This document shows, piece by piece, positions 34,566 to 37,918 of a stretch of 64,000 nt of DNA. The stretch is taken from positions 103,810 through 167,809 of the forward strand of contig NZ_JACESB010000005.1 of the NCBI RefSeq assembly GCF_013912005.1, read 5' to 3'. Within the stretch, counting starts at the first letter, position 1. Each line of letters starts with the position of its first letter. The notes beneath the pieces are model-generated. The model was not told where the DNA came from. It did no database searches and was given only the letters and a program-made list of their open reading frames with translations. Source of the stretch: Brevundimonas sp. (GTDB taxonomy: Bacteria; Pseudomonadota; Alphaproteobacteria; Caulobacterales; Caulobacteraceae). A program made the position numbers and the translations under genes.

Positions 34566-35972
34566 ATGACCAGAGCGAACCTGAAGCCCCTCAACCAGCA
34601 GGCGATCGTGGTGACCGGGGCGACGTCCGGCATCGGCCTCGCGGTGGCCCGGCGCGCGGCGCGGGCCGGGGCCTGCGTGTTCCTGATCGCGCGCAGCGAG
34701 GGCGACCTGAAGACGCTGTGCGAGGAGCTGCAGGCGACGGGGGCGCGGGTGGCCTGGGCCGTCGCCGACGTCGCGGACCACGACGCCCTGATGGCCGCCG
34801 CCGAAAAGTGCCAGCGGCTGTTCGGCGGCTTCGACACCTGGGTGAACAACGCCGGGGTCACCATCTTCGGCCGCCTCCGCGACACGACGCTGGAGGACCA
34901 GCGGCGGCTGTTCGACACCAACTACTGGGGCGTGGTCAACGGGTCCCTGGTCGCCGTCGAGCACCTGCGCGCGCGGCCGGGCGGCGGGGCGATCATCAAC
35001 GTCGGTTCGATTCTCTCCGACGCGCCGATCCCGATCCAGGGCGCCTATTCGGCGTCCAAGCACGCGGTGAAGGGTTTCACCAACGCCCTGCGCATGGAGC
35101 TGATGCGCGAGCAGGCGCCGATCACCGTCAGCCTGGTCAAGCCGGCGGCCATCGACACGCCCTACAACCGGCACGCGCGAAACCTGACCGGTCAGGCGAC
35201 GCAGAATCCGCAGCCGGTCTATGCGACGCACGTGGTCGCCGACACCATCCTGTACTGCGCCAGCCATCCGATCCGCGAGATCACCGTCGGCGGCGGCGGA
35301 CGCCTCATCGCCAGCTTCTACGCCGCCCTCCCCGGCGTGGCGGAACCTCTTTTCGCCCGGTTCGCTCCCTCCCTGATGCGGGACCGCCGTTCCGCGTGGC
35401 AGCCGGACGACGACGGGCTCTATGACCCGACAGAGGACGGTCTCGACGAGGAGGTCCACTACCCCATGGTTCGACAATTCTCCGCCCTCGCCGAGGTGCG
35501 CAAGCACCCGGGAATCGCCGCGGGCGTGATCGCTGTGCTCGCCGGCGTCGGCCTCGCCACCCTGCTGCTGAACCAGCGCACCGGCCCGACCCGGCTGGAG
35601 AGCCTTCGCGGCCGCCTGCATCCGCGCGGCTGGGTGGACGCGGCGGCGCTGCGGGACAGGATCGACGATCTCGCGGAGACGGTGCGGCACGGCCTGACCG
35701 AGGCGGGCGAGCGCGCCGGCGAGCTGGGCGACGAGGCCCGGCATCGGTCGGGGCGCCTGCTGCATGACGCCCGGCATTCCTCGCGCAAGGCGATGCGCAA
35801 GCACGGACGCAAGGCCCGGCTCTACGCCCGCGACGCCGGCGACTACGCCCGCACTCACGCCAAGGAAGGCGGCGCCATTCTGGCCCTCGCGACCATAGCC
35901 GCGGCCATCGGCGCGGCCGCTCTCGACGCCCGCCGCCCGGACAGCCGGCTGCGCAACATCGGGCGTCACTGA
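34566..35972 (+). CDS. Short-chain dehydrogenase fused to a membrane-anchored charged tail
   Basis: The N-terminal 250 residues are a classical SDR: TGATSGIG (17-24), NNAG (93-96), Ser147, and Tyr160/Lys164 in YSASK. Then follows a linker, a membrane helix (about 314-335), a long charged helix rich in Arg, His, Glu and Ala (about 345-432) and a second hydrophobic helix (about 434-452). The charged helix plus C-terminal membrane anchor resembles the DUF883/YqjD-ElaB type. In total 468 residues, about 200 more than a usual SDR. The substrate is unknown. The tail suggests attachment to the inner membrane, perhaps with ribosomes or envelope partners, which is inference. Confidence 0.85.
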   Translation: MTRANLKPLNQQAIVVTGATSGIGLAVARRAARAGACVFLIARSEGDLKTLCEELQATGARVAWAVADVADHDALMAAAEKCQRLFGGFDTWVNNAGVTIFGRLRDTTLEDQRRLFDTNYWGVVNGSLVAVEHLRARPGGGAIINVGSILSDAPIPIQGAYSASKHAVKGFTNALRMELMREQAPITVSLVKPAAIDTPYNRHARNLTGQATQNPQPVYATHVVADTILYCASHPIREITVGGGGRLIASFYAALPGVAEPLFARFAPSLMRDRRSAWQPDDDGLYDPTEDGLDEEVHYPMVRQFSALAEVRKHPGIAAGVIAVLAGVGLATLLLNQRTGPTRLESLRGRLHPRGWVDAAALRDRIDDLAETVRHGLTEAGERAGELGDEARHRSGRLLHDARHSSRKAMRKHGRKARLYARDAGDYARTHAKEGGAILALATIAAAIGAAALDARRPDSRLRNIGRH

Positions 35973-36037
35973 GCCAATGCAGGCGGCCGTGCGGCCGCCT
36001 CGTTGCTGCAGCTGCGAAGGTGAGCCATGGTCCGACC

Positions 36038-37918
36038 ATGACCGCCACCTTCGTCTTCGACTTCGACTCGACTCTCGTGCGTATCGAGACCCTGGAGGCG
36101 CTGGCCGACCTCGCCCTTGAAGGTCAGGCGGAAGCGCCGCGGGTTCGCGAGGAGATCGCCCGCCTGACCGCGGCGGCCATGGCGGGAGAGATTCCATTCG
36201 GCGAGGCGCTGAGTCGCCGACTGGCCCTGCTGCCGCTGACCCGGGCCCACGTCCAGGCCCTCGCGGCGGGCATCGTCGAGGAGCTCACGCCGTCGGTCCG
36301 CCGCAACGCCGACTTCTTCCGCCGGCACGCGCGGCGGGTCCTTGTCGTTTCGGGCGGATTTCGTGAGGTCATCGCCCCCGTCGCCGCCTGGCTGGGCATC
36401 CCCGAGGAGCGGGTGCTGGCGAACGACCTCGTCTACGATTCGTCCGGACGGGTGATCGGGGTCGACGACGCCAACCCCCTGTCCCGGGCGGGAGGCAAGG
36501 TCGAGGCGCTGGCGGCGGTCGACGGGCCGCGGATCATGATCGGCGACGGCTGGACCGACGCGGAGGTCTGGCTCGGCGGCGCCGCAGACCGCTTCTACGC
36601 CTTCACCGAGGTCGCCCGGCGCCCCGAGGTCGTCGCGGCGGCGAACGCCGAGGTCGCATCCGTCGACGAGTTGCTCCACGCGGAAGGCCTCGTCGGGCGC
36701 TGGTCCTATCCGCGCAGCCGCATGCGCATCCTGCTGCTGGAAGCGATCCACCCGGCCGCTGTGGCGCGTTTCGAGGACGCCGGCTATCGGGTCGAGACCG
36801 CATCCGGCGCCCTCGGGGAGGACGAGTTGATCGCCCGCATCCGGGGCGTCCACGTCCTGGGCGTTCGTTCCAAGACCCAGGTGACGGAGCGGGTTCTGGC
36901 CAGCGCCGATCGCCTGCTGGCCGTCGGCGCCTTCTGTATCGGCACCAACCAGATCGATCTGCCGGCCGCCGCCGAACGCGGCGTGGCGGTCTTCAACGCC
37001 CCGTACTCCAATACCCGTTCGGTCGTCGAGCTGGCGGTCGGACTGATGATCGTCCTGCTGCGGCGGGTCGCCGAGAAGTCGGCCGCCCTGCACCGCGGTC
37101 AGTGGAACAAGTCGGCCGCAGGCGCCCGGGAGCTGCGCGGCAAGACGCTGGGGATCGTCGGCTACGGCGCCATCGGCTCGCAGCTCTCGGTGCTCGCCGA
37201 GGCGCTCGGCATGCGGGTCGTGTTCCACGACCTGACCGAGCGGCTGGCCCTCGGCAATGCGCGCCGGGCCCGATCGCTGAAGGACCTGCTCGCTGACAGC
37301 GACGTGGTCAGCCTCCATGTCGACGGAAGATCGGCGAACGCCGCGCTTGTGGGCGCCGGCGAACTGGCGGTCATGAAGCCGGGAGCCTTGCTGCTCAATC
37401 TCTCGCGCGGCCACGTCGTCGACGTGGAGGCGCTCGCCGAGGCCGTGCGTTCCGGCCGTCTCGGCGGCGCGGCGGTGGACGTCTTTCCGGAAGAGCCGGC
37501 GACGAACCAGGACCCGTTCGCCAGCGCCCTGCAGGGCCTGCCGAACGTGATCCTGACGCCGCACATCGGCGGCTCCACCGAGGAAGCGCAGGAGGCGATC
37601 GGCGAGTTCGCGGCGGACCGGCTGCTCGCCTACCTCGAACGGGGCGACACCAGCTTCTGCGTGAACCTGCCCAATGTGCAGCTGGCCGAGGTGTCCGGCG
37701 CCCATCGCCTGCTGCACATCCACCGCAACCAGCCGGGCGTTCTGGCCGAGCTGAACCGGGCCATCGCCGCGGCGGGTCTGAACATCCTGGGGCAGCACCT
37801 CAAGACCGACGAGCGCACCGGCTACGTCATCGTCGATGTCGATCGCGACTACGATCCGAAGGCCCTGGCGGCGCTGAAAGGTGTGACCGGAACGCTGCGG
37901 TTTCGCACCGTGTACTGA
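36038..37918 (+). CDS. Fused phosphoserine phosphatase-phosphoglycerate dehydrogenase (SerB-SerA)
   Basis: One continuous 626-residue frame joins two enzymes of serine synthesis. Residues 1-220 are a HAD phosphatase: FDFDST (Asp8, Asp10), Ser105 in VVSGG, Lys154 in GGKVEAL and GDGWTD (Asp170, Asp174), as in PSP/SerB. Residues 229-540 are an E. coli-type SerA: SKTQVTERVL, CIGTNQIDL, GYGAIG (375-380) for NAD, Arg457 in NLSRG and His509 in TPHIGG. Residues 556-626 are an ACT domain with HRNQPGVL and a conserved Asn in GLNIL, matching the serine-binding sites. ATG 36038 matches the phosphatase start; GTG 36020 is an alternative. The pathway's middle enzyme SerC is not here. Confidence 0.92.
   Translation: MTATFVFDFDSTLVRIETLEALADLALEGQAEAPRVREEIARLTAAAMAGEIPFGEALSRRLALLPLTRAHVQALAAGIVEELTPSVRRNADFFRRHARRVLVVSGGFREVIAPVAAWLGIPEERVLANDLVYDSSGRVIGVDDANPLSRAGGKVEALAAVDGPRIMIGDGWTDAEVWLGGAADRFYAFTEVARRPEVVAAANAEVASVDELLHAEGLVGRWSYPRSRMRILLLEAIHPAAVARFEDAGYRVETASGALGEDELIARIRGVHVLGVRSKTQVTERVLASADRLLAVGAFCIGTNQIDLPAAAERGVAVFNAPYSNTRSVVELAVGLMIVLLRRVAEKSAALHRGQWNKSAAGARELRGKTLGIVGYGAIGSQLSVLAEALGMRVVFHDLTERLALGNARRARSLKDLLADSDVVSLHVDGRSANAALVGAGELAVMKPGALLLNLSRGHVVDVEALAEAVRSGRLGGAAVDVFPEEPATNQDPFASALQGLPNVILTPHIGGSTEEAQEAIGEFAADRLLAYLERGDTSFCVNLPNVQLAEVSGAHRLLHIHRNQPGVLAELNRAIAAAGLNILGQHLKTDERTGYVIVDVDRDYDPKALAALKGVTGTLRFRTVY

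Follow-up and report, generated by a model that had tools for sequence, protein, structure and literature searches.

A single reading frame joins a phosphoserine phosphatase domain to a type II phosphoglycerate dehydrogenase

We analyzed a 64,000-nucleotide stretch of Brevundimonas sp. DNA (the window). On its + strand, a single stop-free reading frame runs from an ATG at 36038 to a stop codon at 37916-37918 and encodes a 626 amino acid (aa) protein. An alternative in-frame GTG lies at 36020, and the in-frame stop upstream ends at 35767. An earlier note on this DNA had described a phosphoserine phosphatase (PSP, SerB) and an ACT-bearing phosphoglycerate dehydrogenase (PGDH, SerA) joined in one frame, and we indeed observed no stop between the two parts. 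The features of the gene are as follows.

36038..37918 (stop included), + strand: SerB-SerA fusion gene, 626 aa, from the open reading frame and Pfam and NCBIfam matches; alternative GTG start at 36020
36038..36682, + strand: PSP (HAD-IB phosphatase) domain, residues ~1-215, from profiles, alignment, and invariant residues
36683..36721, + strand: junction, residues ~216-228, within a segment whose length does not vary among relatives
36722..37024, + strand: SerA substrate-binding domain, first part, residues ~229-329, boundaries approximate, from Pfam and the E. coli SerA alignment
37025..37603, + strand: SerA NAD-binding block, residues ~330-522, with R457, E486, and H509; missing in the shortened forms described below
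37604..37696, + strand: SerA substrate-binding domain, second part, and hinge, residues ~523-553
37697..37915, + strand: ACT domain, residues ~554-626, with H562, N564, and N582

The Pfam domains are ordered HAD, two 2-hydroxyacid dehydrogenase domains, and ACT, with no aminotransferase (PSAT) domain in the chain. The C-terminal part scored 624.8 bits against the NCBIfam type II SerA model NF008759 (cut-off 404), over residues 227-632 as numbered on the GTG-started frame, and aligned end to end with E. coli SerA. It comprises substrate-binding, NAD-binding, and ACT domains and lacks an ASB domain, the composition by which a type II PGDH is defined (PMC6300728). The SerA half thus shares its domains, catalytic residues, and serine-site residues with the E. 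coli enzyme (PDB 1yba, 1psd), which differs in being unfused and without a PSP domain. The N-terminal part exceeded the cut-off of the HAD-IB phosphatase model TIGR01488 (52.2 versus 45 bits) and gave its best alignments with human PSP (1nnl) and a PSP-like protein of Francisella (3kd3). With these stand-alone HAD-IB PSPs it shares the fold motifs and aligned residues; unlike them, it is fused to SerA, and its score of 70.7 bits against the serB model TIGR00338 lies below the cut-off of 144.15, a threshold that is reached in only 7 of the 14 control genomes. Recognizing the fusion may help annotation, as its PSP half does not attain the usual SerB threshold. A 610-aa open frame also lies antisense over the gene (window 35966-37798, - strand) and is probably a by-product of GC-rich codon use. 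A scan for promoters and terminators gave nothing exceeding chance.

Active-site and serine-site residues are invariant

We aligned 109 full-fusion rows (108 distinct sequences, the window protein being present twice) with 34 distinct shortened forms. In the PSP domain, D8, D10, S11, T12, E17, R61, S105, K154, D170, and D174 were invariant in fusions and shortened forms alike. Two positions varied: M48 (M in 105 of 109 fusion rows and in 34/34 shortened forms) and T173 (92 fusion rows have T, 10 have N, 6 have S, and 1 has G; all 34 shortened forms have S). By alignment with human PSP, the HAD motifs and the presumed substrate residues are present. In the SerA half, R60, S61, K141, R240, E269, and H292 (E. 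coli numbers) were invariant in the 109 fusion rows; R240, E269, and H292 align with R457, E486, and H509 of the fusion. Serine-site residues H344, N346, and N364 (H562, N564, and N582 of the fusion) were invariant in the 109 fusion rows and in the 34 shortened forms as well. Every one of the 109 rows (108 distinct) therefore carries the type II active-site set R60, K141, R240, and H292, whose roles in E. coli SerA are given in PMC6300728 (sections 8 and 9), together with the ACT residues that contact serine (section 9 of the same paper). The catalytic residues are thus complete in both parts, as had been claimed.

The stretch that contains the junction (window protein residues 205-240) was 36 residues long in 108/108 distinct fusions and in 34/34 shortened forms. 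Rough NG86 estimates against five Brevundimonas or Caulobacteraceae relatives, at high dS, put dN/dS at ~0.24-0.46 in PSP against ~0.09-0.26 in the SerA parts, so that PSP evolves faster than SerA.

The fusion is common in Brevundimonas and in Bacteroidota

We surveyed 101 genomes, namely the window's own, 60 others of its genus, and 40 of its order outside the genus. The fusion was intact in a single open frame in 57 of the 61 genus genomes; it was interrupted by a contig end or divided between contigs in three (G023, G040, and G059) and lay as two pieces on one contig in G005, which is 66% complete. The 40 order genomes outside the genus gave no full-length match. A second survey, of 150 genomes of the order with the PSP domain as query, found the fusion in 12 of 13 genus members. 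Four of these were new to the survey: three carried the fusion (G105 is called from its 643-aa open frame only) and one, G164, did not. Pooled, 65 distinct genus genomes comprise 60 with the intact fusion, 4 with it in pieces, and 1 without. Eighteen genomes from other genera of the family gave only weak PSP matches (E 1e-6 to 1e-10, in frames of 272-355 aa), although named Asticcacaulis records do carry the fusion. Nineteen stand-alone PSP genes, at 35-42% identity, were found in a different family of the order (f4). In G067 (L185) and G099 (L186), an unfused PSP gene and an unfused type II SerA gene are adjacent and convergent, and in G091 (C1:650735-651376), a stand-alone-type PSP match sits inside a 608-aa frame, either a long frame or another fusion, with SerA elsewhere on the contig.

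Across Pseudomonadota, 87 of 299 genomes drawn gave a match at E ≤1e-60: 4 fusions, all from the window's own genus, 80 unfused type II-like SerA proteins, and 3 weaker dehydrogenases. We rejected fusions in G522 and G447, where long frames surround SerA, as the translated SerA frames (L158 and L156) contain no PSP domain. A scan of public genome contigs confirmed at least 584 stretches, and each of the best 80 that were kept spans the query from residue 1-6 to 625-626; being the top-scoring matches, these 80 do not give the share of fusions among all 584. The architecture is hence common, contrary to the rarity that the earlier note implied. Thirty of the best 80 are from Caulobacteraceae (Brevundimonas and Asticcacaulis) and 50 from elsewhere, mostly Bacteroidota (Hymenobacter, Dyadobacter, Algoriphagus, Pontibacter, Sporocytophaga, Runella, Larkinella, Rudanella, and others), but also including an Omnitrophica and a Nomurabacteria. 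Among 148 Bacteroidota drawn, including the centre G202, 25 matched at E ≤1e-8. Ten of these are full fusions and five are shortened forms; in the other ten, which match weakly, the PSP part begins ~200 or more residues into the frame (two translated). Given the single frame in 60/65 genus genomes and in the best 80 of at least 584 stretches, and with nothing found in its favor, an assembly or frame artefact has a negligible probability.

In the literature, covered at the level of titles and abstracts, mostly open access and without supplements, we found no description of a SerB-SerA fusion or of the shortened form. A diverged SerC, with no gap at SerA or SerB, is reported for Echinicola in passages of PMC7311316; the lack of a gap would fit a fusion there, which these passages do not themselves state.

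A single origin is enough, and transfer between phyla is likely

In a SerA tree, all 34 sampled fusions fall on one side of a branch (support 100) from 24 unfused type II SerA proteins, and one fusion origin is therefore enough to account for them. Caulobacteraceae fusions (7 rows, 99) branch beside all other fusions (85), which makes transfer of the fusion between phyla likely, in either direction between Caulobacteraceae and Bacteroidota. Thirty-three phage records matched the fusion, none over 80% of its length, and the 10 of these 33 that were listed cover SerA only. The SerA in phage-labelled records (OQ572411.1, CAKLQH020000003.1, and others) has ~52% identity to the SerA half and seems likely to be host carry-over or contamination. 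The shortened form alone, used as the query, had no match in a plasmid collection at E 1e-30.

The fusion probably replaced a native serA

We then considered which other serine genes accompany the fusion. The fusion is the best SerB match (TIGR00338) in the window's genome, where the sole other match (20.9 bits over 50 positions) led us to reject a hidden stand-alone SerB. It is likewise the best match in 16/16 other fusion-bearing genomes, and nothing in these 16 or in G164 exceeds the cut-off. A separate SerC, above the cut-off of its model (SerC_2), is encoded on another contig of the window's genome, with a purA-like frame ~30 bases after it. No second ACT-type SerA was found in this genome, which holds two short SerA-like dehydrogenases (36-38% identity) that could be backups in the SerA role.

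In four relatives from other families of the order, chosen for having serA, serC adjoins serA in all four, with purA beyond serA in three. The window's genome and those of an Asticcacaulis (G213) and G164 have serC and purA without serA, and tblastn detected no remnant of a native serA in the serC-purA stretch of any of the three. We infer from this missing gene that the fusion probably replaced the native, unfused serA beside serC in the Brevundimonas-Asticcacaulis line; it looks as though native serA gave way to one incoming gene.

G164 (same genus; L251, L181) is 99% complete and has no PSP match at E 0.001. Its best SerA match is a short dehydrogenase at 35%, and serC and purA are kept. 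It may be a serine auxotroph or use another route; loss of one fusion gene removes two pathway steps at once.

A SerC-like gene lies beside the fusion outside Caulobacteraceae

The search for SerC nearby that the earlier note had proposed was positive in one part of the range. A gene for a SerC-like class V aminotransferase directly follows the fusion, on the same strand, in 20 of the 50 non-Caulobacteraceae loci among the best 80 of at least 584 stretches, starting from 240 bases before to 487 bases after the end of the fusion. It is spread over two frames in L084. For the two that we tested (L091 and L101), phosphoserine transaminase models matched best, below their cut-offs. The other 30 of the 50 loci have no SerC-like gene adjoining the fusion; in L095 it lies 4.2 kb away, and the L061 sequence stops 39 bases past the fusion. 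In Caulobacteraceae, none of the 30 loci has a SerC-like gene beside the fusion. These loci have genes resembling the neighbors of the fusion in the window, which, as named from translations, are a short-chain dehydrogenase upstream (21/30), a GDSL esterase downstream (22/30), and Hsp33 nearby (27/30). A second HAD-type gene of ~238 aa was seen after the fusion and the SerC-like gene at L091:4517-5230 (Omnitrophica) and L099:8068-8781. A comparable serB match lies 3 kb downstream in G211, the source of L104.

One Bacteroidota order carries a shortened PSP-ACT form

The five shortened Bacteroidota matches have frames of 435-453 aa. PSP comes first in them, followed by what is left of the SerA substrate-binding domain, in diverged form, and then by the SerA ACT domain.

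L117, L119-L122, L187-L216: shortened PSP-ACT loci

Over 90% of the 34 aligned shortened forms lack the counterpart of E. coli SerA residues 112-304. R240, E269, and H292 are absent in 34/34, and R60 is R in 0/34. In L117, HAD and an ACT family scored above their cut-offs, the dehydrogenase catalytic-domain family scored below its own (15.2 versus 24.6 bits), and no NAD-binding family matched. Compared with the full forms, the shortened ones average 0.45 identity in PSP, 0.52 in ACT, and 0.24 in the first part of the substrate-binding domain, so the remnant has diverged whereas PSP and ACT have been retained.

In the order of G338, possibly Sphingobacteriales, all genomes but G747 (150 of 151) have the shortened form, with matches that reach the end of the 430-aa query at 63-100% identity. 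In a quick PSP tree, which was flagged for odd composition and long branches, the shortened forms sampled (14) make one clade (99) nested within the fusions (97 for 17 fusions plus these 14), and on this placement the shortened forms appear to descend from the full fusion. A SerA search of 20 genomes returned a short SerA-like gene in the 13 with the shortened form and in G747, and the full fusion in the other 6. These short genes (33-39% identity, frames of 316-352 aa) have matches that end before the ACT part, and a class V aminotransferase gene lies directly upstream on the same strand in 14/14 loci, G747 included. In L224, the only pair scored with NCBIfam, the aminotransferase is serC_1 (463.9 versus a cut-off of 443.6 bits), and the dehydrogenase matches PGDH best, at 309.3 bits, below the cut-off of 454 of that longer model.

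A probable bifunctional serine-synthesis enzyme with one serine sensor

We consider it likely, on sequence evidence, that the protein is a bifunctional enzyme in the phosphorylated pathway of serine synthesis, and that its ACT domain controls SerA and possibly PSP. The C-terminal type II PGDH would form 3-phosphohydroxypyruvate, a separate SerC would convert this to phosphoserine, and the N-terminal PSP domain would release serine. Serine would bind between ACT domains and inhibit the dehydrogenase as in E. coli SerA. More tentatively, serine may also alter PSP activity, so that one sensor may govern the first and last steps. The predicted pair of activities is well supported by sequence: the active sites are invariant, no other protein of the genome matches SerB better, and a SerC-like gene lies downstream in 20/50 loci. 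Counting against it are the PSP score below the serB cut-off, the short SerA-like dehydrogenases in the genome, the lack of the fusion in G164, the faster evolution of PSP, and the absence of a SerC-like gene beside the fusion in 30/50 and 30/30 loci. The earlier note had also raised a phosphatase acting on another substrate. On this reading, the PSP domain serves salvage or works mainly on another phosphate ester, such as histidinol phosphate, and the fusion would be no device of the serine pathway; the score below the cut-off would fit, and some PSP-annotated proteins have been proposed as histidinol-phosphate phosphatases (in a passage of PMC5764234). We regard it as improbable, given that no better SerB exists in the window's genome or in 16/16 other fusion genomes, that the PSP-type residues are invariant, and that a SerC-like gene directly adjoins the fusion in 20/50 loci. 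Nor did we find support for channelling, which had been suggested as well: SerC acts between the two steps and is encoded elsewhere in the window's genome.

Textbook feedback in serine synthesis hits the first enzyme. In E. coli SerA, the substrate-binding and ACT domains form a unit that turns against the NAD-binding domain when serine binds (PMC6300728, section 9). PSP is joined to the start of this unit by a stretch of constant length, which makes an effect of serine on PSP plausible. The shortened form is the strongest hint of such an effect, as it keeps the serine-site residues without a dehydrogenase core to regulate, and it lends indirect support to the proposal that feedback reaches both ends of the pathway. 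As a tentative scenario, somewhat short of an even chance, we propose that fusion was a regulatory capture: PSP came under the ACT domain of SerA, and one sensor throttled both ends. One Bacteroidota order would then have excised the dehydrogenase core (E. coli ~112-304); PSP would have kept ACT, feedback would have moved from the first to the last step, and a short SerA without ACT would have taken over catalysis.

An only slightly less than even probability goes to a plain co-expression fusion, in which both enzymes work and PSP gains nothing from SerA or ACT, the benefit being that stoichiometry is fixed and two genes move as one. This agrees with the two steps not being consecutive and with distant lineages having received the fusion as a unit, native serA probably being replaced in one of them. 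It sits less easily with the constant junction length in 108/108 fusions and 34/34 shortened forms and with retention of the ACT serine site after loss of the dehydrogenase core. The shortened forms may, however, keep ACT only for dimerization or folding and so be uninformative on serine control of PSP, a possibility that we take seriously while leaning against it. E. coli SerA does have an ACT-ACT interface in its tetramer (noted in PMC6300728); against this reading, the serine-contacting H344, N346, and N364 are kept in 34/34 shortened forms. With a fusion and descendants that lack the dehydrogenase core but retain the sensor residues, regulation, stoichiometry, and channelling become directly testable against each other.

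Relation to known serine-pathway proteins

The protein is a variant assembled from known enzymes, and the shortened form lifts the case beyond an annotation note. Mycobacterial SerB2, a precedent for control of a PSP by serine, also has PSP and ACT in one chain; its PSP is inhibited by serine (according to PMC10564941 and the abstract of PMC4270767), with the ACT domains implicated in this inhibition (PMC10564941). The arrangement differs: SerB2 has two ACT domains N-terminal to PSP, whereas the fusion has one C-terminal ACT behind a whole SerA, and in the shortened form the single C-terminal ACT sits behind a SerA remnant. Serine-pathway enzymes are likewise found in one chain in the stramenopile PGDH-PSAT fusion (described in parts of PMC2705460 and PMC5715807); this protein is eukaryotic and joins the consecutive steps 1 and 2, whereas the fusion in the window joins steps 1 and 3.
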